NCBI RefSeq assembly: GCF_000002865.3
Contig: NW_001865040.1
Location: 2,200,715 to 2,221,861 of the forward strand
Direction: 5' to 3'
Length of the DNA: 21,147 bases
Source of the DNA: Monosiga brevicollis MX1
Taxonomy: Eukaryota > Opisthokonta > Choanoflagellata > Craspedida > Salpingoecidae
Positions 1,517 through 20,686 of this stretch are shown here, piece after piece. A model generated the notes under the pieces. It saw nothing but the letters and a program-made list of their open reading frames with translations. It searched no databases and had not been told where the DNA came from. Numbering within the stretch: position 1 is the first letter of the stretch; every line of letters starts with the position of its first letter. Position numbers and translations under genes: made by a program.

Positions 1517-3605
1517 ATGGCCACCGCCGATCTTGCTGGGCCCACCCCTCCCGTGCACCAGGACCCCGACTTTAAATCGATCAGCGATGACGAGGAGGAG
1601 GGGCCGGCGGCCATGGCCCAGCACCTGCGCACACGCCGCCGCCTGGACATGCGCACCTCGTCCACGGGTGGTCTCTCTGAGGCCTCCTCTCTCCCCTCCA
1701 GCCCCGATGCCGACGAGCACGGAGAGAATCAAGAACACGAACATACCCAGGACGATGAGTGCTCCACTCAAACGAACCTTGAAGAGACACCAGCCAATTC
1801 TACGCTGGGCATGGTGGTGCCATGTCCTGGTGACGTGAGCATTGGCCCACCAAACGAAGACGAACTGCCCACGTTTCAAGACATGTGGGTTATCCCCGGC
1901 TTTCAGCGCCTGCTTTGCAAGAGTGTCCACGCACAACCGCGCCGTGCCCATCGGGATTCCGACTTTAACGAGAATGGTGTGTCCCCCCTGCTCCCCTTCT
2001 CCTACCGCGTCCCCGTCTTGCGTTGTATCCCGTCGCCCTCTGCCTCTGAATTACCCTTTTCAAGCGCTCATCCCCACTTTGCCTTGCTTGGCCTCTTGCA
2101 TCTGGGTGGCTCGGCTGTCCGGCTGAAACAACAGCCAGCTCTGTCGGAGGGGACTCGCCCCGTCCATCGCTTGACGGGGCTGCTGCCCCTGGAACGCGGC
2201 GACGCGCCAATAGTGGCGCCTCCTCGATTGTCTCTGCCCTCTCATTCCGATCCGCAGACACGACCTCCCGTGGTTCCCTCAGTGAGGGCAGCGTCCGCAA
2301 ACCACGCAACACCCTACTGCGCCGCCTCTCCTGGAAGCGCACGAAGAGCAACTACAATATGAAGGAAGCCCTCAAGCAGAGCGAAGCCTGTGGTTCAGCC
2401 AGCGACAGCGACTCCACCATCAAGCCCGTCACTAAGAACGACAAGCCTAAGCGTCGCAAATCGTTCCTGCGCCGTAAAAAGGGCCTTGATGCCAACACAG
2501 CCGTCGAGAGTGCCGCTAAAAAGTTTGAGGAAGAAACCACGACCTCACGCCGCCGCCACCTCTCCGGCTCGGACGAGGCCGAGGTGACAGGCCTCTCTCT
2601 CATCACATACATCAACTCGCTCAAAGAGCTCGAAAGCATGAAAGCTCAGTGTTTCGCCGACGACTGCGATGAGCAATTCACCTCCTTGGCCGAGCTGCAA
2701 GAGCACATGCTCACTCTCCACGTCCTGCCACGCATTCAGCAAGTCCCAGACTACGTGTACCTTTTCCACGAGGACCTTCCATTCTTCAACCAGCGAGACG
2801 TCGTGGCTAGCATCACCTATCATGAGCGCGATTCGCCCCTGGCCCAATTTTACCTCAACCAGCCCATCTTCAATATCTCTTGCTTTCGGCCAGGTATGTT
2901 TTCAATGGAGCCTGACCCCCCCTTCCCCACTCTTCTTTTACGTCCAACCGCTGCATGCTTGACACTCGTCAGCACTCATCACCTGACCCTTCATCCCTAA
3001 TCCGTGCCCCTAGTGGAGGACAACACCACCACAGTGAGTCTGTCCGACATTGACAATCCTTGCCGTGACAGTCGGACGGAGAAGATTCGCCGCTTCATTG
3101 GCAGCGGCCTTCAAGTCTCAATCCGACGCAAGTGCCTCTACGTGACGCGCCTATCGCGCAATCCCGTCTTTCTCAAGGTTCGAGACTGGTTTCGCTGACA
3201 CAAGAAAGAAACATGACCCCCGTCATCCCTCTCAACCTCAATGTTTTCTTCTCAGAACTATCAAAGCCCGTCAACAGTCTCAGACTCAATTCTGTTGCGT
3301 GAAAACGGGGAGCTTCCCGACGGCGCCGAAGTCTGCCTCTTCGACTACCAAGTGTTCTCCAAAGAGATTGCTCGCATGCCTGCCGAGCTGGCCCTCAAGA
3401 TGGCGACGGTCTCTCTCGCCTTTGTAAGTGACTTGCCTTTAAGGGCAACCTCCTCCCCGTACATTGTCCTTTCTCATCACGCAATCCTGTTTAGGTGCGA
3501 ACGGGTGAGTTTGACGACAAAATTCCTTGCTGGATCCGCATTCGAATGGGAGATGCCTTGCGCATGTGGGAAACCTTGACCCATTCAACCCAAGATCACG
3601 CGTAA
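1517..3605 (+). CDS. C2H2 zinc finger plus SMAD-type MH2 domain protein (553 aa)
   Basis: Exons are 1517-1976, 2135-2893, 3014-3177, 3256-3423 and 3495-3605. Phases (1,1,0,0) agree and the total is 1,662 nt. The start ATG is the first in frame (CACGATGG context). Residues 1-320 are acidic, then Ser/Arg/Lys-rich and probably disordered. A canonical C2H2 finger lies at Cys326, Cys331, His344 and His349 (C-X4-C-X12-H-X4-H, with the usual Phe and Leu). An MH2 domain spans about 376-545. VASITYHE matches WCSI.Y.E; RRFIGSGLQVSI matches RRHIGKGV.L; LYVTRLSRNPVFLKNY matches V...CLSD.A.FVQS; CLFDYQVFSKEI matches the K(I/V)F(N/D).Q.F strand; PCWIRIRMGDALRMWETL matches TPCWIEIHL...L..LD.VL. In animals MH2 binds phosphorylated receptors and forms SMAD trimers in TGF-beta signalling. 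Here no MH1 DNA-binding domain is visible and the tail ends STQDHA, not SSXS. The GWG of the L3 loop is absent. The donor of exon 3 (GTTCGA) is weak, and the first intron is the least certain. Confidence 0.82.
2641..2712 (+). other. C2H2 zinc-finger coding segment of the MH2 gene
   Basis: The spacing C-X4-C-X12-H-X4-H and the inner residues (C-X3-F-X5-L-X2-H) are those of a classical single C2H2 finger. It lies about 30 residues before the MH2 fold, in the position where SMADs carry a proline-rich linker. It could bind nucleic acid in place of the missing MH1 domain, or protein; this role is inference. Confidence 0.75.
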
Positions 3606-4055: not shown

Positions 4056-7000
4056 TTAGTGACTGAGCTCCAGGCTCAGAGAGACTAGGTTGGTCGCGAC
4101 CACATCTTCAGCTCGTTCGAGAAGAACGCAATGTGGCATCCCTGACCCTGGGGGCAGGTAGTGGAAAATCGCGGCGCACAAGCCGTGGTGAGTGCAGGCC
4201 TGGGTACACTCTTCTACGGTGCGACCGTCGCGCAACACGTCCAACTGAGCGTCTGTCTGAAAGGCATTGCCAAAGCGCAAGGATTCCCCAAGGGGCTGAG
4301 ACCCCGAGGCGCGGAGTAAAGTGCCCGACGGTGTCCAGCGTGGATCAAAGTCAAACTGTGCTCGGCATTGCAATGAGGTGGAGTGCGAGCTTGTCGCTAC
4401 GCCCGCCTCACCCACGTCCGCGAGAAGCTTACAGCGGGCTCGTGCGCCTACGAGCCAAAAGAAGGCTCCGGTGCATGAATTTCGACGTAAGCAGGCTGCT
4501 TCGCAGCCGGATTGGTCCAAGTCGTACAACTCCTCCAAGAGCGCTGTCGCTACAAAAGCCGTGGCAAAGCGCCGTGGCGTGTGGGAAACGTTGGTCAGGC
4601 CAGGAACCGTCAAGACACCCTGATGTGCCACCTCGCACCCACGCCACGTTTTTCGAGTCAAAGATAGTGAGTTTGACTCTGTTGAGACCCCATCGGGTGT
4701 TCCAAGATCAGAGAGGAGATGGCATCGTGTTTCTCCAGCTTTTGTGAGCCAGAAGAATGCACCGCGGCAAATGGCCGATGTCTCGCAGGCTGCACAGCAT
4801 GCCTCGAGCGACACCTGTTTGAGTTCAGCCTCGTACTTCTCTGGAGTGAAGGCGGTCGAGAAGCGCCGCCGGTCGGTTTCGCTGTCAAAAGTGATGCTAA
4901 AGCCGGGAAGGCTAGGCGCCGTTGGTGCCGCTGTCTCTGACGTTGTTCCAGGAGTTGCCATGTTGTCAGTCGTTGTGAACGAGCTTGAAGTTATGGAGGC
5001 CATTGGCTCCGAACGCGAGCTGCTGGAGGTGGAGGTGGAGGAGGTGGACGTGGAGGTGGACGTGAAGGTAGAAGTAGAGGTCGAGGTCGAGGTAGCGGTC
5101 GAAGTAGCGGTAGAGTTCAAAGGCAGCGGCTGCGTCGCGGTGGCGGTGAGACACTCGAAAACATAAGCCGGTCGCTCCACATGCGGGGAAAACAACGCAA
5201 CAGTGCTTGAGCTGAGCAAATAAGCGCGAATGCTCGAGCCCGCTGCCATGGTAAATTGCACCCGAGTTCGTGGCCCCGGTAGAGTGCCCCCGTACACCCA
5301 GGAGCTCGAGCCATTGTCAGCATGACCCGGCAGCAACAAGGGGCTTGCCATATGGAGCAGGTTTGAGCCGGCCACATGCAACGACAGTTCTGCCGCCAAG
5401 CCACCATCCCAGGATCGTGTTTCGATGACGAGTGCGACAGAGCAAGTTGTTGGCGTTCGGTTGTGCTCCACCTGCCAGTTGACTGCCGCGACTATCGGCA
5501 GGCCCAAGTAGGCCTGAGCCCACAACCGCGTGTCGGGCTGATTCAAGGCGCCATCGCCGTTGAAGTCCAGGCTTGCGGCATTAAACAGCTTATTCAGCTG
5601 CTGCAACCCGCTGAGGTGCGTTGTTGGCAAGACCATTTGTTGCAGGGGCGTGCTCCGAAACACGAGAGCTGCCAGGTCCCGTAGATCTAACTCACAGTCT
5701 CCGTTGGCATCACCCCAAACGTCTACGGGGCAGCTGGCAGCCGCGGCACCGTTGCATTCATTGCGAGTAATAATGTCATAAGGTGTGCATGATACGTCTC
5801 GCGGACGTCGCGCCAAAGTGGCGGCCTCAAGCTGCAGGCTACTGTTAAGGACATTTGTATACGTGCGGCTCAACAGGCCGGGCCCCACGAGCTCCAAAAC
5901 CTCGGCATGAAGGGCTGCGTGAGCAGCCGCGTCAAGTTCCACCCACGCCATCTCCAGAACTGTGCCTGCATCGGCCACAATGACTACAACCTCTAGCTCG
6001 CAGTCGCGAAGTGCAAACTCCAACCAGGCTCCAGCCTGGCCAACGCGTGCACTCGCATTGGCCAGTGCCTCACATGAAGCGGACAGAACAAAACGCAGTA
6101 TCGTGCCAGCGCTCAGCTCTTCATCCATGTAGAGCCACAGTGGAACCGTCACTCTATTGGTTGTCATGTCGTTTGTCGATCCAATCCACAGCCCACGCTG
6201 CGGCGGCGCGCCGAGAGCTATTGAGAAAGATCCATTCGAGAAAAAGAGGGAAAAAAAAAAAAAAAAAAAAAAAAAAGTCCAAGGCCCGCGTTAGAGTGTC
6301 AACGTTGCCTTCCTCATACATGCCAGAGGGCCAGAAAGAGAAATCGAGAAAGCTCGCCATGCACCACGGGTAGGCACACAATACAGGGCACAAACAAAAC
6401 CAACCTGGGACTTGCACGCTTGCAAATGGACTGCCTCGAAATTGAATGTCCACTTGCACTGAGCCAGCACGGGGTGACATCACCTGGCAGTGGCCTGTCT
6501 CGGCATTGACACCAACGACTTCAGGTTCATGGCTGCGGAAGGACAAGAGCTGCGGCAGTAGGGCTGTGCCATCCCGCACAAAGAAGGTATGGGGTAAGAG
6601 GACCCCCTCAGCAAACAAGACGTGGTCAAAGACCACCTGCTGCGCTGGCGAAACACTGGCCCCATGAACGGCGACCACGGCCCGTGGGGAGCTGCTCACG
6701 CGGGTTTGCGCGATATTGCTCATGGAGACACCGAGAAAATATGCAAACGACACTAAGCCTGGCGCCTCTGGCGTGACCACATGGCCACGATAGCCATAAG
6801 TGGGTTCATGTTGGAAGGACAACCGCGCTCGATTATCATAGGTGGTCATGCCCAGCTCGCCGGCTGCAATTCCTCCAAAGGCCAATGCTAGACGTTCAAG
6901 CGATGGCCAGCAAAGTCATGCAAGGGAAAAGGGAAAGAAACAACCCATTTGTGAGACTGTTGAACAACAGGCCATAGCAGCAGATTCAATCTTTTTCGGG

Positions 7001-10000
7001 TGGCTGTGCGCCTACACACTTACCGTCAGTGGCGGGGCCGGGGCTGAGGGCCAGAGTCGACCCATTGCTGAGGTTGGCAACACAAAGCAACATGGCACTT
7101 TCATACACGCGGCGGCCGGTACGATCGACTCCCGCTGGTGCCAACGTGGTTGCTTCACTTTCTAGATGGGGGTCCGATTGCGTCGCAGGCCAGTGCACCA
7201 TGCGCAAGGACAGTCCAGTGCTGGCAACGACGTGCACCGTGTGTGACGCTCGTAGTAAAGGGGCGTCTGTGTGCACAAAATGGACAGTATGTTGGCCCGT
7301 GCTGACACCAGAAAAGCAGAGGGAGGTACCACTTCGGCGTAACGCCGAGGCATTGAATGCAATAGACACGAGCGCGCTCGCGTCTGACGCCGGACGTCCG
7401 CCATCGTAGAGCAACTGGACGCGAAAGCAACGGCTAATCGCGGTACCAAAGCTGACCAACAAGTCTCCCGGCACGGTGACAATTGAAGTAGAATCCATGG
7501 GGGCTTCCACCCCAGAGTCGAGGTCATATGCAATGACCTGTAGGGCGACTGCGCGAGCCGGAGCCACGGACAAGTTGACCGCATTGGTCGACGCCACAAT
7601 TCCGCCGCACGGCACTGGTTGCATCAATGCCACAGTCAGAGTGGCCGTTTGAGCCATTGCCACCGGCACCCGCGCCTCGATTGAAAGGTTCCGGGTGGCT
7701 AGGACCGCTAGAGCAGAGCTAGATACGGTTGTTTCCAGTTGATGCATTGAAAGAGGCACGATGGACCAATCTTGAAGCACCAGATAGGGTGCTAACGTGG
7801 CTGTGGTCTCGTTGTCTCGCAATACCGTGCTGTAGGGCGAGGGTGGTAGGGATGCTGAGAGATCCCACTGCTGTGCAGCTTCGCCCCGAGCGCTAAACGC
7901 AGCCTCGACGACGCTGGGAGTAATGAGGGCCATGTTCAAGCCCAAAATTGTGGCGGGAACGGGCAAGATGGACCGAGACACGACCGAAGTCCACAAGCTG
8001 TTTCCCTGACGGAGTGCCAATGTCAGATTACTTTGGACGGTCGCGGTCCACACATGGGGACCGCTGCGCCAAGCTGCGGCGTCAGGCAAGCAGTCGGCCA
8101 GTGAGCAGCGGTGCGTCACATCGACCATCATCCCGTCAACGTGTGCCAAGATGCGCAAGCGTTGCGGAGCTCGTCGTGCACCGTTTGTACAGGTGTCATC
8201 TGACCGCCAGCCCCAGATGGGGCGACTGAACCCGCGATCAGGCACCAACGATACGTTCTGCGGTTGGTGCACGCGAACTTGGACGGTGACGTTGCGTCCG
8301 AAATCGCCCGTGGCCAAGCGCGTCGTTGCCGTCAGCTGCAAATCAAAGCTGTCACTGAGTGTGTCGGGCCAAAGCACTACCTCAGCGCAGCTCGCAGCTT
8401 GAACGGCTGCCGCAGGATGCGCCGTGCAAGTCATGGCCTCGGTCGACATGTTGGTGGTACGACCGTCTGTTGTCAGAGCCCGCAGTCGCAGGCTCAGGCG
8501 CCGAGGTTGGTGCTGCAGAGCACCGTCATTCAAGAGCGCGTAGTGGCTGGGCACGGGGATCAGCAATGAGGTCGCATCGGCAAGCTCGGTGTCCAAGACA
8601 CGAATGTTGCAGTTCGTTGAGGTACAGTACGATGAAAGAGGTGCCAGTGCCCCGCCCCCGTCACTAGCGGTCCACAGATGGAGGGCGAGTGGAAGAGGCA
8701 CACTGCTAGCTGCATCCATAGGTTTACTGACGGTCAATGCCACGCGCAAAAGGTCGAGGACATGGATAATCTGTCGTGTTATGGTGCTCGAAGCCGTGGC
8801 AGCCGTGGTCTGGCGCGCCGAGAAGACGACCCAACAATGCGTACTGTTTCGCACAAACCGGCTTGTTCCTGTCCAGCCAGTCGCCAGCTGTGCATCGCGG
8901 AGTTGGAGTACGCAGGGTACATCCAGCGCCCCACTGAGAGTGATGGGCCCGTGTGACCAAGCATGGGCTCCGATTTGCACGGCAACCACGTCACCAGCCC
9001 GTGCCGGCTGCAAAGGGGTGGTTAGAGAAAGCTGAGCTGCTTCTGACACGGGAAAACCCGGCTGCGTAACGTCGTGGCTGAGCCTGAGAGGTGGGCAGGC
9101 GATTTTCTGGCCTGAGAGCGTGTCGATCAAGTCAGGCGTCACAACGACCTCACGTCGATCTGGATGGCTCATGTTTGCCCAAGTTGAGGGATCGGCGCCA
9201 ACTGTGGCCGACAACGCGGCCGTCAGCTCCACTGGCGTGAGCTGGAAGACACAGAGGCCGTCATTGTCAAGGCGACATGTTTGCAGCTCCACGCCACCCA
9301 CTTGCATGGCCAGTGGACGCATGACGAGACTTGTCGCCGCTGGGTGATATGCATGGCCGATCAGGGTGATCTTGTCAACGGCACTGTGTGCAGCAACCAC
9401 CGGGGCCGCCCAATGGCAAGCCAGACGTAAATCGAGGGGAGCAAGTGACCCACTCAGCATCAGCTCCCGAATGACCGGCACATGACCTGTGGCCCGAATC
9501 GGCACAGGAAGAGTCAGCACATCACCCGCATGGCCACCGGGACTCGCAGGCATTAGATCCACCGACTCGACCTGAATGGCCCTTGAGTTGTTTGAAGCCA
9601 ACAACAGAGCCGCGCTCGGGCCTAGTTCGAGTTGGATATCAGGCCAAGAAGGCGGCTGGGCTTGTAGCAAGCGCTGGTGAGCCGCTGCCATGCGTGCAGC
9701 TAAGTTGGCCAGACGCTCGCTGGTCGTCGCCAAGCGAGTCTGCAAAGCGGCCGTCGCATTGAACGTCGGCACTACGTGCAGACGGCTTTCCAACTCGGAT
9801 GCCAGTGTTTTGCTGGTGTGCACGAGCTGTGAAGCGTCCACGGCGAGGCCGTCGGTGCCACGTGTCAAGTTGGCTAACAGAACAATGGGAGTGGATGTAT
9901 TCAAGGAAGTCCAAGCGCAGGACATATTCATCTGATCCGTGGCATTTTGGGCTGCTGTTGCTATGGCCGCAAAGCCAGCTGTAGTGCGAGACGTCAGTCG

Positions 10001-13000
10001 CGTAACTTCTGCAAATGGATCGATGCCTGCCTCGGCGGCCAGGAATAACGAGGTATTGAGGGTAGCTGCGGCTTCGTTTAGGCCTGATAGGACTGCAGAA
10101 GCGTTGTTCAAACGACTCACATCTGCTTGCAAAACTGCCTCATCGAACTCCTTCAGCAGTGGAAGATGTGCAACCTGTGACTGGGCAGCCCTTGTTGTGG
10201 CATTGGCAGCTCGGTTTGCAGCCACAAGTGTAGCCAGGTCGGCAGCACTGTGGTTAGCAAGGACTGCGTTGTCCGGATTCACAGGCGGTGCCAATGCAAC
10301 CAGCCATTCGCCCATGGCTGCAACCGTGCGCTCCGTCTGATCGACATCACTGGCTGCCACACGAGAGAGGTTGTGAGTCTGAATGGCCTGGGCGTCAAGT
10401 GCGTCCACTGCTGCATCGAGCGTAACTGCTGCAGCCGGGATGGCCTTGTCCAGAAGGTGTGCGCTGTTGTTGAGGCGAACTTGCATGCTGGCGCCATCAA
10501 TACGCAGTGCGGCTGCTTCAGCCTCGACTTCTGACAAGAGGTTGGTGGTGTTGTTCAGCGACCCTTGGACTTGCACCAGCGCTTCGACGCTGGCAATATG
10601 GTGCTCTTGCAGCCTGGAAATATGAGCAAAAGTGTCGCTTATTTGAAGACGGCTGGCCTCGAACCGATCAACTAAGGTGGCGATGCCAAGCGTCGAGTGG
10701 TTGAGGCTAGCAAAGGCATCAGCAGAGTCGGTTGTGGCATTATCCAAAGCGATCTGGATGAGGCCACGTTGGGCTTGCACCTGAGCCAGCTGCCGGTGCA
10801 ATCCGGAGACCGCCAGAGGGAACGCGCGTGCCTGCACCTCGGCATGTAGGGCTCTATCAAATTTCGTCTGAGCGGTCGCGAGCGCAGACCTGTTGAGGCT
10901 GTTGCTGGCTTCCGCGAATAAGGCGGCCCACTGAGCAGCCAGCGTCTCGAGTGTGGCAGCAGTGTGTGCAACTTCCCACGCCGTTTGAGCTTGGTGTCCC
11001 CCAAGAGCCTCCAGGGACAAACGTAGCCGATCCGTCGCCAAAATCATCGTCACAAAAGCCGGGGCCTGCCAGGTGGTGACTGCTCTGCGAAGGGTGCTGT
11101 TGCCTGCGTCCACCGTCGTTGCCAACGTGGAGAGCTCTTGGGCAGTCACTGTGAGGGACGTCAAGGCAGATTCGCGTGCAGCCTGAGCTGCAACCAGGTC
11201 TGAACGCACTGCATCGAGACCCATCATTGCAGTCATGTTCACATTTCCAAGTGCATTCGAAGCGTTGTGCCACAAGTCGCGCAAGTGTTGCGAGCACGCA
11301 TTGCACGTCGCGCAGCCCACAAATGGAATCAGGTTGATGGCGGTTGCGACACACTGATCGCATCGTGGCCCTGCCACCCCGGGTAAGCATCTGTGGGCCG
11401 CCACAAGAACACGTGTCATCGGTCAGCCAGCCGTGACTGGATGGATGATCTCATATCTTTAGCATGGGAAGGGGTAGACTTACAGGCAGGTACCAGACAG
11501 AGGATCGCAGGCTCCGCGGTGAAGAGTTCCAGCTGGATCGCAGGCACAGGCGCGGCACCCAGACGCGCTCAGGTTGAAATGGCCAAACGCGCAGCGATTG
11601 CATCTACAACAAGTCCCAGTCGTCCCAGTGGTCAATATGTGGGGGCAAAGCCGTTGTGATGCGGATGTGGTGACCAATCAAGCATGGGCAAGAACTTCGC
11701 GTGCCACCCCGACAACAACAGCCCATATGCGCACTCGGCCCACAAGCCCGCTCCATGATCGATCAGCTTACCTTCTATCGTTAGCAACGCCGGGCCGACA
11801 CGTGCAGGCCCCCTGGGCCTCATCACAGATCGGGGAGACGGCCCCGAGGGTATGGCAGTCACAATCTTGACAATCACCAGCGGCTGAGAGAGCTGCGGCA
11901 CGAGCGCCACGAGCGCACTGTGCAGCGTCCACTTGGTTCAAGGGATAGGCTAGGGCTGAGCAACGGTGTGTGGTGCGTAAGCTGGCCGTGGCTGTGATGG
12001 CCGCTACAGCAGGGGCCACTGCAGGCTCCAGAGCAGCTTCCATGGCAACAACTGCGCGTGGTACCAGCGCGAGGGCGTCCCAAGCACAAAAGGAACCCAT
12101 CTCTGCATTGCACACAAGCGTGATAAGGACGCTCCCTTGGATCGTGAACTCCAGCGCATCGGCCAGAATGGTGTCACAAAAGTCATCATTAAGACATGGG
12201 GCCAGATTTGTTGTTCGGGCGGCAATGGCAAAGTCGTTGAACTCGATGCGCACGAGCGCGCTTGCTTGTGAGGCATGGCGCAGAACCAAAGTATGCGAGC
12301 CGCTGCTGGCAGTCAGGGGCAGGGCCACATGAATAGGGAGATGGCTGCGTACAAATGCCAACCCCAGGCCTGAATACTGCATGGTTGCGTTGGGATTGCT
12401 GGGTACAATGCGTTGGATCACGCTCGCTGCGTTGATAGCATCCTCAATCTGATACAATGAGGTGGCCACAACGGGCGCAAAGGTGCCGGCTGAACAGTGA
12501 TCACAGGAATGGCCTTGGATGTAGTGCCCACGACACGAGCATGTTCCGTTGGGTGCACACACAGAGCTGGCGCTAGCGCCGGGCAGACAGGTGCAGCCCG
12601 CGCACGGCAGTGAAGTGGTTGCATTGGTTGATACAGGGGTGTAGCCAGTGGCGCACTGGTCGCAGTGCTGCCCAGTCATGCCTTCCCGACACGTGCACTG
12701 GCCTGTTTCCTGCAGCAATAAGAGACCGGTGTGCAGTCCAGGAATGAGTCGAGCATGGCGGGAGCCTTTAAAAATGAAAAAAAAATATCATCATTCACTC
12801 CGAAGACCAAATCTCTCGACACAAATGTGTCATGTGCATCCGGCGGACAAGCCAAGTTTGAGGCTCGAACTATTCTGATTGGTTGCCGCTGGCCTACCTG
12901 ATCGCAGCTTGAACCGATCGCACCGCGTGGATCACAGGCGCAGTCGAGACATCCATCTGCATGTGCCGTGGATAGATTGTAAGAGCCGGTGCGACACGTA

Positions 13001-15432
13001 TCACACTTGAGACCAGTGACACGGGCTTTGCAAAAGCACTGTCCAACGCCAAGGGCCTGTACGTCATCCTCCTCCTGTACGCAGGACTGCACGCCACGAT
13101 TCAGGAAATTGACACGTGAGATGGATCGCATCACAGCAGGTGATACACGTCTGGCTGGAGGATGAAGTGACGTCGCTGGTGCCACACCTGATTGGAAGCA
13201 CCTGCTCGCACGCAGTTGCACGCTGAGCAAGGCGTGGGCGCGTGGCGGCTCACACCCTCGGGTCGGAAAAAGCCTGATAGACAGCGCTCGCAGTTGATTC
13301 CTGTGGGCACGTTTCACCGATGTCAGTACCATGACATAACATTTCAGCCAGAGGCTATTTGGCTGCGCCTCAACCTGCACCGACCTGCAGTATGATTGGC
13401 ACAGGCTACACAGCGTCCGGCTCCCACATACTGGCCATCTACATTAAGTGAGGAACCTTCCACACTCGGGTCATAGATGCATGAAGCAGCATGTCCGAAG
13501 CACTCGCATGGTTGACATGCGTGGGTGGCATTGCTCGTTGCCGGGGCCCAGGGTTGCTTGAGTACGTGCTGACCGGTGGCATCAAGGACCCCTGTCCAGG
13601 ATATACAAGCGTAAGTGTTGATGATGGGGATGATCGTGGGTGGGGCCAGCTCGGCAGATGAGATCGCACCTTGGTTGAAAAGGGGTAAACAAGACTGGCA
13701 AGACCGGCCTTGGGTATCGTGCTGGCAAGCACAAATACCCTCGTCCAAATCACAGCTATCAGCATGACCATGACAGTTGCAAAGCCCCACCATGTCCACT
13801 TCAAGGAGGGAGTGATGGTAAATAGGCGCATCTACAAGGGCGGCAGGAGGCTAGAGACAGTCCAGGTATAGAAATGTGGACGTAGAGACGCCAGCAAAAA
13901 AAAAAACAGAAACACATGCATGAAATGGGCAACGTCGGCATGAGGACACAAAGTCGCTGTTGTCACCAGACTGGACGGAGGTGCTGACCACGAAGCGATG
14001 CAGCTGCAGAAGACGAAGGCGGATGTGATCGGCCGTCACAAACGCGCGGACGGCATCCACCTCAAGACTGCGGTAGTCACTTGTCAGGCCTAGCGACGGG
14101 TCACGCCGTGGCATGAGACGCGGTCCGGTTTGACGCACGGGAACAAACGTGAACGCGAAAGGTAGTCGATGTACCTACTCGGCAAGGAGAGGAGAGCTAG
14201 CACAACAGGGGCTGGCGCATATGGATCGAGCTGTTCTTGCACGCACTCGGCCTCGGCGGTGCCTGTGGAGGTGATGCCGGACAGCGGCTGCATGCCAAAC
14301 GAGGCTATGATTTGTCAAGGCAAAAGAGCACCGGGTGAGATCAACGAGGCCAAGCCAGCGGTTCTGCGCACATGTGGCATTCTCACAGGATATGGGGGCA
14401 AAAAGCAAAAGGCCTGGGACGTGCCTTGACAGTCGCGGGCCATGTACCGCCAGGGCGTGAAGGAGTGACCCCCATCTGTCGAGCGCTCGATAACCATGGC
14501 TGCAGGCTTGGGCGAGTTGAAACGAATCAGGACATAGGCAAGGTGGTACTGAAAACTGGACTCGGCTGAATTCTAGGGGCGATGCGTCAGCGTCAGCGTC
14601 AGCAATGAGATATAAGGGTAAGAATTTGAGTGAGGGTGACAATGACCATCGTCAGAAGAATGAAGAACGTGAAAACCGGGAGAGCGCAGGGGTGGAACCA
14701 GAGGCCAAGGCCAAGGTCGAGGCAGAGACAGAGACAGAGACAGAGAGTCTCAGCCTCTTCGCACAAAAGGGAAAGGAACAGGGTGAGGAGCACACGCACG
14801 GGATCAAGGCTGATTGTGACGTTGATGTCGTCCATGCCAGGTGGACCTTGCCAGAAAGAAGATAGGTCGCCATCAAGGATGTGGGAAGGCGGGTGGAAGG
14901 TGTCTGGGTGTGCGAGACTGCAGCTGTGTCCGCAGCTGTAGGTCAGCTGGGTGAGGCCTGCACAAAGACCGCCATTAGGCACAGTCAAGGCAAGACTTGG
15001 TCGTTAAAGAGGGGAGCCAAGCACTGATGCGGGAGCTCACCGGCGACGAGGCAGACATTTTCGTCTACGGGAGCAAATGCGGGGGGCGTCGAGGAGTGGT
15101 GCTGCTGCGCATAATCCAATGCATCATGCTCGAGCAGGTTATAGGGTGGGACTGCCGACTCGCTGCTGGACCGGGCACCACAGGTCTCGGTTGCGATGGC
15201 TCGGGCGCCATGGCGTAAGGAACCTGCAGCAATGACCCAATGGATACTAGAGGGATGAGGGCTTATGAAGCTGTGCAGCAGCGCTGCCCATGCCTGTACG
15301 AGTTGAGCGCCAGTTCCAAGTTCGGCGAGCTTTACCGGCTTGTGGTGGCAGGAGCAGTGAGCTGTAGACCAGATCTGCTTGCAAAGCCAGCAGAACAAAC
15401 AGGCAAACGCCTGCGCTCAGACACCCATCCAT
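4056..15432 (-). CDS. Secreted laminin-like / TMEM132-like / dockerin / PAN chimera (3,191 aa)
   Basis: Fifteen exons on the minus strand: 15432-15336, 15223-15041, 14957-14800, 14572-14425, 14304-14179, 14089-13967, 13831-13670, 13591-13385, 13300-13188, 13086-12898, 12709-11772, 11603-11484, 11390-7024, 6887-6405 and 6217-4056. All phases agree; the sum is 9,576 nt. Domain order is: signal peptide (1-32), LN (35-295), five LE repeats (296-579), domain-IV-like insert (590-722), two LE repeats (785-886), helical coiled-coil (893-1433), TMEM132-like beta region (about 1441-2470), dockerin-like pair (2641-2700), Thr/Ser stalk (2839-2908) and three PAN-like repeats (2911-3191). The first two thirds follow the short-arm-plus-coil plan of laminin beta/gamma chains. 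The rest does not: I see no LamG domain and no transmembrane helix, so a secreted matrix or theca protein is likely. Exon 4's donor appears to be GC (14424-14423), and the exon 7/8 intron (78 bp, frame-neutral) may be retained. In-frame ATGs at 15522 and 15510 offer longer N-termini, but the ATG at 15432 gives the best signal peptide. Confidence 0.83.
4059..4901 (-). other. Three tandem PAN/Apple-like cysteine repeats
   Basis: Three units of about 85-95 residues end the protein. They share RF(S/A/G)(T/N)AF, then an E.C...C motif, then a C..(A/G)(A)(F/I)F(W/H) strand, C.LL.D.G and a final TxSxSL strand. Each holds four or more cysteines in a PAN/Apple-like order. The first two are closest (GAFFWL and C(H/K)LL(S/A)D(L/V)G); the third is more diverged. 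PAN-type modules bind proteins or carbohydrates; no partner can be named. Confidence 0.6.
4908..5117 (-). other. Thr/Ser-rich stalk encoded by microsatellite-like DNA
   Basis: Residues 2839-2908 are a run of TATSTSTST and STSSSS units followed by further Ser/Thr/Pro. The DNA is a degenerate GAGGTGGAC-type repeat on the plus strand. Such stalks are usually mucin-like, O-glycosylated spacers. It separates the dockerin-containing part from the C-terminal cysteine repeats. Length is likely to vary between strains. Confidence 0.8.
5532..5711 (-). other. Dockerin-like pair of calcium-binding loops
   Basis: Two 12-residue F-hand loops, DANGDCELDLRD (2641-2652) and DFNGDGALNQPD (2689-2700), have ligand residues at positions 1, 3, 5, 9 and 12. 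Each is followed by a short helix, as in type-I dockerin duplicated segments (D.NGDG.....D). The spacer of about 36 residues between loops is longer than in bacterial dockerins. Calcium binding is expected from the motif; partner binding is unknown. Confidence 0.72.
6251..6276 (-). repeat. Poly-T tract (26 nt) upstream of a 3' splice site
   Basis: Twenty-six adenines on the plus strand lie inside intron 6404-6218 of the laminin-like gene. Read in the sense direction this is T26, ending about 33 nt before the CAATAG acceptor. It probably acts as an extreme polypyrimidine tract rather than a retroposon tail, because no target duplication or retroposon body is seen. Confidence 0.8.
6405..9622 (-). 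other. TMEM132-like (cohesin plus Ig-like) beta region
   Basis: Residues about 1441-2470 show a string of TMEM132-family landmarks in the family order. CRLDNDGLCVFQL (1560-1572) resembles TMEM132 CRL...GLCVA.L. ARAGDVVAVQIGAHAWS resembles the KGDVLTFPVSI start of the cohesin domain. TDGRTTNMSTEAMTC (near 1830-1843) resembles DGTV.E..ESV.C. A GWR motif (1915-1917) is followed by VDVT (1944-1947), as in TMEM132 GWR...VDIT. STGLSLRM and ESAMLLCVANLSNGSTLALS resemble TGLSLSL and EAAISCWVQFSDGS. Animal TMEM132 proteins are single-pass adhesion molecules with a cohesin domain and Ig-like domains. Here the transmembrane helix is missing. The assignment rests on motif recall, not an alignment. Confidence 0.62.
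9656..11278 (-). other. Long alpha-helical, coiled-coil-like region
   Basis: Residues 893-1433 are Ala/Leu/Gln/Glu-rich with frequent N-glycosylation sequons (NAS, NMT, NST, NRS, NHS, NNT, NLS and others) and almost no Pro or Cys. They directly follow a CATCNAC motif after the last LE repeat, just as laminin domains II/I follow the LE arm. Heptad regularity looks loose, and many sequons suggest heavy glycosylation, so it may be a helical rod rather than a trimerising coil. Confidence 0.6.
12050..12448 (-). other. Laminin domain-IV/LF-like insert between LE repeats
   Basis: About 130 residues of probable beta-sandwich (residues 590-722) interrupt the LE array, as the L4 or LF module does in laminin chains. 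It starts LYQIEDAINAASVIQRI and includes GSHTLVLRHASQASALVRIEFND and a CLNDDFC segment. Identity to a specific laminin IV subtype is not clear by eye; position in the array is the main evidence. Confidence 0.5.
12479..13781 (-). other. Five tandem laminin-type EGF (LE) repeats
   Basis: Residues 296-579 carry the eight-cysteine LE pattern. Examples are CNCHGHADSC...CQHDTQGRSCQSC; CECFGHAASC...CANHTAGINCERCLSGFFRPEG; CNCVRAGASNQSC...CFCKARVTGLKCDTC; CACDPRGAIGSSCDQETGQCTC...GQHCDQC; and CTCLPGASASSVC...CSC. The repeats are split by short introns at 13669-13592, 13384-13301, 13187-13087 and 12897-12710. These fall in the same place in the joined protein as expected from the cysteine spacing. Confidence 0.88.
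13782..15432 (-). other. Signal peptide and laminin N-terminal (LN) domain
   Basis: Exons 1-7 (start). The signal peptide begins MDGCLSAGVCLFVLLALQA. LN landmarks are ILDGDLSSFWQGPPG (family DGN..TWWQSPP), INVTISLDP (VNITLDLG), FQYHLAYVLIRFNSPKP (Y.L.YV.IRF.SPRP) and MVIERSTDGGHSFTPWRYMA (a near-perfect LN signature). Then come RDCQASFGMQP, FVTADHIRLRLLQLH (ATNIRI.F.KLHTLGD) and IYHHSLLEVDMVGLCNCHGHA, the usual LN-to-LE junction. In laminins and netrins LN mediates polymerisation or receptor contact; that it does so here is inference. Confidence 0.88.
14573..14799 (-). other. Longest intron of the laminin-like gene, with GTCTCT repeat
   Basis: This 227-bp intron (donor GTGCGT, acceptor CCCCTAG) splits the LN domain between INVTISLDP and NSAESSFQYHLAYV. 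It carries a short (GTCTCT)n run and a (GACGCT)3 triplet near the acceptor. Removing it restores a continuous LN signature at phase 0. Confidence 0.75.
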
Positions 15433-19293: not shown

Positions 19294-20686
19294 TTAGGCG
19301 GCCTTGGCATGGGGGTTGCCAACCTGGTGCATGTTGGAGAGGGTGTCACCCAAGCAAGACCAGTAACCGCGGACGTCATAGGGCAGGCCGTGCTTCTCGA
19401 ACAAGGCCTTGACGCGAGGGGAGATTTGCGGGTGACGGAACTGGGGCATGCAGGGAAAGAGGTGGTGCTCAATCTGAAAGTTGAGGTAGCCCATCCACCA
19501 GTTGCAAAGGGGTGTGCCGGCAATGTTGGTGGTGTGCTTGGCGGCGTACTCGACCCAATGGAGGTACTCGTCGGCCTGGCTCACGGGCAGATGGGTGTGG
19601 GAGAGGGCAAAATTGGTAAAGATGTAGGCGGCCCCAATCATGTCGTACAAGATGTAGAGACCGATGGCTTGAGCCCAAGTGAAGTCACGAAGGACGACAC
19701 CAAAGATGACCAGGTAGCGCACGGCAAGAGTGAGGAGCTCGAAGCGCTTCTTGGTGCGGATCATGTAGCGCGGGTGGAGATAGATTTGCCAGCCGAGGGC
19801 CACAAGGAGGCAGGACAGGGGGATGAAGCAAAAGGCTTGGGCACGCAGCCAGAGCTTGACGAGGGGATTGCGGGCCTTGGCGGCGATGACAGAGTTGAAG
19901 GCAATCAGGGGAAGAGTCTCCAGATCCACGTCGTGCTGCAACTTTTGCGGGGTCGCATGATGACGGTTGTGCTGAGAGCGCCACCAACCGGCCGACATGC
20001 CACAACCAATGCCATAAAGGGCAATTTGGAGACCACGATCCAACATCACACGGCCCGTAATGCTGTAGTGACCACCCTCGTGCATGAGCCAGCCACAGCG
20101 ACCTTGGACGATCGCCAGCATCACCACGCCGAGGGCCGTGAAGAGACCCCCCTGCCACACAAGATAGGCACCGAGGACGTGCATGCCGATGATTTCAGCA
20201 AAGCGCAAGGCAATCTCGCCACGCGAAGGCTCAAAGAGGCCCTCCTCCTTGAACTGACGACGCAGGGCAGCATAATCCTTGGTCAGTTCCTCGCGGTTGT
20301 TGTAGCCACGCTCGACCATGACGTCCTTGGGGGCCGGGCGGTTGGGCAGGGACTTGAGCAGATACTGCGCGCGCTTGCTGCGCAGATGAAACTCCTCAAA
20401 GGCCTCTGTAGCATCGCCATTGTTCACCAAGAACTTGATGACCGAGCCACCTGGAAGGCCCATCAAACGGCGCATGAGATGACAGGTCTACCGGGCAGAG
20501 CCAAGGCAGCCGAGGCAGCCGAGGGGCGGAATGCTGGGTTTGTGGGGTCAAGGGGAAGAAGCGCCATCTCAAACCAACTGTACCTGGGTGCTTAAAGCCA
20601 GAGACATCGTAAAGCTTGCCATTGATCAGCACCTCCTGAACTTCCGACGACGCCTGGTCGGCGCTCGACTTGGTCGACGACGGCAT
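19294..20686 (-). CDS. Cytochrome b5-fused front-end fatty acid desaturase (419 aa)
   Basis: Two exons on the minus strand, 20686-20584 and 20450-19294. The 133-bp intron (GTACAG...TTCCAG) splits the haem-binding HPGG motif at phase 1. The N-terminal cytochrome b5 domain has its two haem ligands at His33 (HPGG) and His56 (EAFEEFH). The desaturase domain has the three histidine boxes HEGGH (158-162), HNRHH (195-199) and QIEHH (360-364). The Gln in the third box is diagnostic of front-end (delta-4/5/6/8) desaturases. Several hydrophobic segments (about 118-150, 238-256, 275-315) fit a membrane-spanning endoplasmic reticulum enzyme. It should insert a cis double bond between an existing one and the carboxyl end of a polyunsaturated acyl chain, using electrons from its own b5 domain. 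Regiospecificity cannot be read from the sequence. The start ATG is followed directly by the b5 domain; upstream in-frame sequence is microsatellite. Confidence 0.95.

Follow-up and report, generated by a model that had tools for sequence, protein, structure and literature searches.

The question raised by this locus of Monosiga brevicollis is whether the short arm of a laminin, an animal protein by which tissue sheets are organised, is indeed continued, within one and the same protein, by a region related to the TMEM132 adhesion proteins and, if so, where such a protein came from and what it might do. In the window, that is, the whole stretch of 21,147 nucleotides that was analysed, none of which is an N, a minus-strand gene (15432-4056; 4056..15432) of 15 exons and 14 introns gives, upon spliced translation, 3191 amino acids without an internal stop. 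Exons 1-5 lie at 15432-15336, 15223-15041, 14957-14800, 14572-14425 (GC donor), and 14304-14179; exons 6-10 at 14089-13967, 13831-13670, 13591-13385, 13300-13188, and 13086-12898; and exons 11-15 at 12709-11772, 11603-11484, 11390-7024, 6887-6405, and 6217-4056. The splice sites of the exon 4/5 and exon 5/6 borders were set by hand, the former by colinearity of the LN domain with laminins and the latter having an alternative site a few codons off; the intron after 14425 needs a GC donor (at 14424), which was chosen because the LN domain thereby stays colinear with laminins, the inspected neighbouring GT donors having failed there. A signal peptide at about aa 1-24 (15361..15432, minus strand) is indicated by the hydropathy maximum just after Met1, the most hydrophobic segment of the whole protein (19-mer mean up to 2.13, the next best being aa 2546-2566 with 1.69), and secretion of the predicted protein is thus supported. 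From the translation one can read an open frame, LN and LE domains, a rod periodicity, a C-terminal homology to a family of adhesion modules, a dockerin, and PAN repeats. Two neighbouring parts of the window have matches of their own, namely a minus-strand open frame at 19297-20487 matching fatty acid desaturases (PF00487, E = 3.5e-35), and a plus-strand stretch at 2053-2997 with a weak C2H2 zinc-finger match under the cut-off (PF21816, E = 8.3e-5).

The laminin identity of the N-terminal half is, on its sequence, certain. The LN domain (aa 87-291; 13794..15062, minus) matches PF00055 with E = 9.9e-30 over profile positions 26-230 of 233, and right after it, as in a laminin chain, comes a tandem of LE repeats in which PF00053 finds seven stretches (E = 3.4e-48). 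The cysteine pattern resolves this tandem into LE repeats 1-4, all of them complete, a fifth repeat broken after its seventh cysteine by an insert (aa 575-781), and two further LE repeats. Repeats 1-5 (aa 296-574; 12494..13781, minus) were delimited by PF00053, the cysteine positions, and the alignment with laminin beta-1, and the rest of LE5 with repeats 6-7 (aa 782-881; 11312..11872, minus) by Pfam, the cysteines, and the laminin structures 1klo and 1npe, both of which align with aa 828-881. In a search of solved structures, the protein matched laminin beta-1 (4aqs, E = 4e-56, best stretch aa 88-525) and laminin alpha-5 (2y38, E = 4.6e-56, aa 104-426), with the netrins ranking behind the laminins at 9e-38 or weaker. 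As far as LE repeat 5, the laminin part is laid out like a beta laminin, and for this reason it may be old. In the genome, searched as 39.5 Mb in 57 contigs with the window on contig C55, this gene was the sole PF00055 match found at E<=0.001, which is not proof of absence elsewhere. Of the 13 PF00053 matches listed at E<=0.001, nine are found beyond the window (G000:C10:89116, C42:74587, C35:239920-243751, and C50:46860), with no LN found beside them, and could belong to possible partner chains. The studies of Fahey and Degnan in 2012 and of Williams et al. in 2014 are the most relevant to choanoflagellate laminin domains, and the laminin half presented here may already have been reported in them.

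The insert in LE5, of about 207 aa (aa 575-781; 11873..12493, minus), is likely, rather than proven, to be an LF domain (domain IV type B), as judged from its position, which is the LF place of beta laminins, and from its length, which compares with the 210 positions of the Pfam LF model, the similarity itself being only suggestive. This similarity is a colinear match to the laminin beta-2 chain 5lf2, weak in score (14 bits, i-E 0.26) and spanning an LE repeat before continuing into the next domain, and the local score of the insert against the 5lf2 fragment was equalled by 10 of 2000 shuffles. The LF model PF21199 was unmatched in this protein by Pfam and had no match genome-wide, where control genomes were equally without a match, so that absence is not shown by it; AlphaFold2 run without an alignment on the LF piece gave a mean pLDDT of 34.6, too poor for use. 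The insert might instead be an unrelated domain, which would leave the short arm laminin-like without being beta-like, a reading that we consider doubtful while granting it a substantial chance: the unmatched PF21199 and the faint 5lf2 similarity agree with it, the LN-LE3 part resembles alpha-5 as strongly as beta-1, and the seventh cysteine of LE5, kept here, is missing in 5lf2. Against it, however, stand the shared place within the fifth LE, the similar length, the similar start, and an LE context identical to that of beta-2, and we therefore continue to treat the insert as a candidate LF domain.

Directly after the last LE cysteine (C881) there is a CxxC pair (C884 and C887; 11294..11305, minus), which may form interchain disulphides, by analogy with those at the top of laminin coiled coils. 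From there extends a helical rod (aa 888-1435; 9650..11293, minus), read as a heptad coiled coil from its hydrophobic period of 3.5 residues (2.74 versus 0.98 ± 0.33, reached in 0 of 200 shuffles), the 3.6 period being likewise raised (2.21, 0 of 200 shuffles). A coiled-coil arm after the last LE, as in laminins, is thus recognised here by periodicity alone, since Pfam placed neither Laminin_I/II nor any other laminin coiled-coil model on the rod and gave only two weak, non-laminin helical models. Roughly 550 residues after C887 contain a single further cysteine, and aa 886-1435 carry 19 N-glycosylation sequons and 21% alanine.

At the opposite end of the protein, a dockerin (aa 2624-2703; 5523..5762, minus) was located by a block profile of the paralogues described below (16.8 bits, E = 2.1e-4, 0 of 500 shuffles); its two calcium-type loops are both complete, each having the D-x-N-G-D...D/N..D ligand pattern. 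The Pfam dockerin model PF00404 falls under its cut-off on it (E = 0.38), the paralogue on contig C22 matches it by blastp with 1.2e-6 (9-sequence set), and a PDB sequence search returned nine weak matches, of which four are named dockerin and four are internalin B chains, the best dockerin (E = 0.028) being a 71-residue chain of a cellulosomal enzyme. AlphaFold2 without an alignment was again too poor for use on this piece (mean pLDDT 47.8). A Ser/Thr-rich linker (aa 2841-2905; 4917..5111, minus) then leads to PAN/apple-like repeats (aa ~2910-3188; 4068..4904, minus), where PF14295 (E = 1.2e-7, two stretches) and PF00024 (E = 2.1e-6) support two repeats, and a third is weak, with below-cut-off matches only. 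The dockerin, the PAN-like repeats, and the placement of the insert inside LE5 are additional to the account given in the initial annotation.

We consider it moderately probable that all of this makes up one secreted multidomain glycoprotein, with laminin short arm, CxxC, rod, a TMEM132-type Ig/cohesin/dockerin module, and PAN repeats, which acts as a matrix linker. Through pairing of its rods, the protein would form a coiled-coil oligomer locked by disulphides, with several LN/LE arms displayed at one end; at the other, the Ig module and the dockerin would anchor this oligomer to surface proteins of the cell that carry cohesins, and the PAN repeats would bind sugar or protein, so that the whole protein would be a matrix linker, probably an oligomeric one. 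The single transcript, the secretion, the oligomerisation, the dockerin binding, and the matrix function are what we infer. A laminin-style network, or a trimer of three LN-bearing chains, is unlikely because the genome search found a single LN. Going further, one may tentatively picture a pre-animal short arm of the beta type (LN, LE1-4, LF in LE5, LE, CxxC, and coil), working here as a homo-oligomeric node anchored through the dockerin to the cohesin-bearing cadherins of this genome, although as a complete proposal we rate this as rather unlikely. Equally improbable in our estimation is that the protein is not a matrix linker at all, and serves as a non-adhesive surface or prey-capture component; PAN and dockerin-type domains do bind protein or sugar without matrix roles too, but an adhesive linker agrees better with a laminin arm, a rod, and a module that cadherin proteins also carry.

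The part of the proposed linker that lies between the rod and the tail is where the relationship to TMEM132 has to be decided. None of the TMEM132 models of Pfam matched the protein directly at E<=1, nor at E<=5, where weak matches are mostly filtered out. A paralogue profile was built from 13 sequences, all of them from PF16070-positive adhesion proteins of this same genome; the single pieces L017, L005, L008, and L015 were kept in it, L018 was not included, the joined pieces C54 and C40 were excluded, because it was not clear that the longest frame in them is that of the module, and L002 and C38, which are near-identical in their overlap (99.9%), were therefore not counted as independent. 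This profile matched the protein over aa 1637-2570 and 2591-2733 with 59.1 bits (E = 3.7e-18), versus a best score of 0.8 bits in 500 local shuffles and 1.0 bit in a second set of 500, a maximum of 2.8 bits among nine real decoys taken from this genome outside the module, and negative scores for the short arm, the rod, the PAN tail, and the reversed sequence; an earlier, narrower paralogue profile had given 30.6 bits versus 4.8 in 300 shuffles. Taken block by block, with E-values computed for about 514 sequences, the strongest signal is a homologue of the fourth TMEM132 domain (Ig4/BIG1; aa 1793-1924; 8183..8578, minus), with 32.5 bits, E = 1.8e-9, and 0 of 500 shuffles, whose alignment places two cysteines at the positions used by most family members, and which is of the PF16070 type through the paralogue profile only. 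It is followed by a later beta block in exon 14 (aa 2365-2446; 6481..6726, minus; 22.4 bits, E = 2.6e-6, 0 of 500 shuffles) and by the dockerin, and these three significant anchors appear in the family order and with similar spacing, which, together with the overall score, identifies a TMEM132-dockerin module of the choanoflagellate type.

The remaining blocks are less distinctive. A possible, weak Ig5-like block (aa 1976-2093; 7676..8029, minus) reaches 8.6 bits and is equalled by 0 of 500 shuffles, yet one real decoy scores 8.9; four of the nine block profiles (Ig2/CR, cohesin-I, Ig6, and cohesin-II) are not significant alone, Ig2/CR being equalled by 145 of 500 shuffles and the first cohesin block (1.3 bits) by 25 of 500, the latter lying within the colinear whole-module match; and the block after the dockerin, with one sequence in its profile, left the protein unscored. 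Residues 1436-1660, where the CRL..GLCV landmark of the initial annotation lies, score at chance when set against the family profile for the N-terminal TMEM132 region (-0.1 bits, which ranks 416 among 962 rows, mostly shuffles); the order LN, LE, insert, LE, rod, and TMEM132-related region in one frame is confirmed, and the profile match expected in residues 1441-2470 is obtained with the paralogue profile at Ig4, none being found by direct Pfam. By phmmer, the protein matched none of eight paralogue loci, and the best blastp value was E = 0.005 (two of the eight loci being in the wrong frame); a PDB sequence search with aa 1436-2310 gave one unrelated match (E = 0.74), and a genome search with the module itself returned its own gene alone at E<=1.

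It could be argued from the missing direct Pfam match, from the non-significant cohesin and N-terminal region, and from the decoy that equals the Ig5 block, that the C-terminal half is a generic series of beta-sandwich adhesion domains, TMEM132-like by composition alone. We regard this as quite improbable, since Ig4 with its 32.5 bits stands against 7.8 for the best of 500 shuffles and 3.6 for the best other piece, its cysteine pair is aligned, and the three anchors follow the family order with a dockerin as the last of them. The protein differs from TMEM132 proteins in its ending, given that, by hydropathy, none of the 12 top 19-mers marks a transmembrane segment with a cytoplasmic tail within its last 620 residues; the sole such segment besides the signal peptide, aa 2546-2566, is taken for a putative strand of the module and not for a membrane anchor, because it lies inside the module, ahead of the dockerin and PAN repeats.

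That one open frame unites the laminin short arm with this TMEM132-related region is supported by the predicted gene structure. Exon 11390-7024 is a single open frame of 1455 codons, for which the chance is about 6.5e-21 at its own base composition, and it runs from the last part of LE7 through the rod into the module, as far as aa 2311; both the LE/rod and the rod/module joins are inside this exon, and therefore the laminin-module fusion is not a splice artefact. On this point the initial annotation, which had placed the joins in an uninterrupted exon and counted 14 junctions, is borne out, the same 15 exons and 14 introns having been reached again, with a GC donor in one of them. GC3 is uniform across the gene (0.593-0.632), and in exon 13 the coding frame (0.611 vs. 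0.522 and 0.636 in the other frames) is not singled out by it. That two adjacent genes were merged here, the first laminin-like with the rod as its last part, the second of the TMEM132/dockerin kind and starting within exon 11390-7024, is very improbable, for although internal Met codons are present (e.g., aa 1422 and 1468), the unbroken frame joins the halves without an intervening stop, and none of the 15 internal Met of aa 900-1800 precedes a stretch as hydrophobic as that of Met1 (best 12-mer 1.66 vs. 2.67, by hydropathy only).

Elsewhere in the genome, PF16070 matches at 14 places, none of them in the window, with 13 marked over the cut-off, two of which qualify only with their neighbours in frame. 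Five loci were scanned by Pfam, and in four of them Ig_TMEM132_5th sits beside PF16070, two under its cut-off, while the same frames also contain cadherin, EGF, Kunitz, and one cohesin, all over their cut-offs. PF00404 matches at 13 places at E<=1, six over its cut-off. Six of these 13 dockerin places, two of the six being near-identical copies, are situated 2.1-2.5 kb downstream of a PF16070 match and in frame with it (five over the cut-off and one below), and in the present gene about 2.1 kb of coding sequence likewise separate Ig4 from the dockerin.

Some members of this family deserve mention for themselves. The TMEM132-dockerin copies L002 and L003 (G000:C38:613741 and 618490) are 99.9% identical over 873 aa, and two module places at G000:C11:129486 and 134436 have equal PF16070 scores, which together suggest recent duplication or gene conversion. 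On the minus strand of G000:C40:445110-456401, three PF16070 matches share one open frame of 11470 aa, a giant adhesion gene. In the cadherin gene L021 (G000:C22:140900-145900), the stretch that aligns with the dockerin is immediately preceded by a PF00963 cohesin and followed by a Kunitz domain, such that cohesin and dockerin are on one chain.

With respect to its origin, parts of this architecture were already known, namely that choanoflagellates have LN and that the TMEM132 module is mobile; the junction of the two was not found described. PMC6030884 reports the TMEM132 order of five domains within cadherins of choanoflagellates and sponges (lefftyrins, coherins, and hedglings), and the word laminin does not occur in that paper; accordingly, the original description of TMEM132 proteins as separate membrane proteins was too narrow, as it also is for this genome, where cadherin, EGF, and Kunitz domains stand in one frame with the module. 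In other papers, the Laminin_N domain is placed before animals, under Choanozoa (PMC6792448), and the laminin-domain proteins of choanoflagellates are said to lack clear animal homologues (PMC4448552), while laminins are called a metazoan innovation (PMC4582122) and beta-laminin is counted among the metazoan-specific clusters (PMC4054682). Neither the laminin-TMEM132 combination nor an LF-like insert at the beta-laminin place was found described in the open-access literature searched, as judged for the combination from titles and abstract starts. Between the shuffle and the relic that had both been offered as explanations, the mobility of the module among cadherin, EGF, and Kunitz frames makes a lineage-specific shuffle likelier than a relic in its entirety. 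Most likely, then, this is a choanoflagellate-type shuffle in which a laminin arm and rod were joined to a module otherwise carried by cadherins and other adhesion domains. A choanoflagellate-type protein composed of LN, LE repeats, an insert where LF belongs, and a coiled-coil rod would mean that much of the laminin arm came together before animals, and its union with a cadherin-linked TMEM132-dockerin module would allow a connection of matrix and cell surface to be tested in a unicellular relative.

In comparison with known systems, the protein shares with the laminin beta short arm (4aqs and 5lf2) the LN domain, four complete LE repeats, an interrupted fifth, more LE, and a heptad rod. In laminin beta chains, the LF sits in the fifth LE and the chain ends in the coiled coil, which fits the 5lf2 alignment; here, in contrast, only about two LE repeats follow the insert, the insert is missed by the LF model, and some 1750 more residues (Ig-like, dockerin, and PAN) extend past the coiled coil. 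Laminin alpha-5 (2y38) and the netrins also share the LN-LE start, alpha-5 scoring equal to beta-1, but neither LG nor a netrin C-terminal domain appears in the Pfam listing of this protein, which therefore ends neither in a coiled coil nor in the LG domains of alpha chains. With the animal TMEM132A-E proteins it has in common a homologue of their fourth domain, an Ig-like one, recognised by way of the paralogue profile, while differing from them in its lack of a direct Pfam match and of a C-terminal membrane segment, and in that the N-terminal region and cohesin are not demonstrated. Closer at hand, the paralogue on contig C27 also unites module, dockerin, and PAN in one frame, its tail similarity being weak (E = 7e-4, 9-sequence set), but in the stretch read it has EGF and a below-cut-off TSP3-like match before the module, and no LN. 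Finally, in lefftyrins, coherins, and hedglings (PMC6030884) the module is carried on cadherin repeats, whereas here it is carried on a laminin arm and rod, and the cadherin-linked copies of this very genome present Ig4 and the later blocks in the same order as here, followed likewise by a dockerin.
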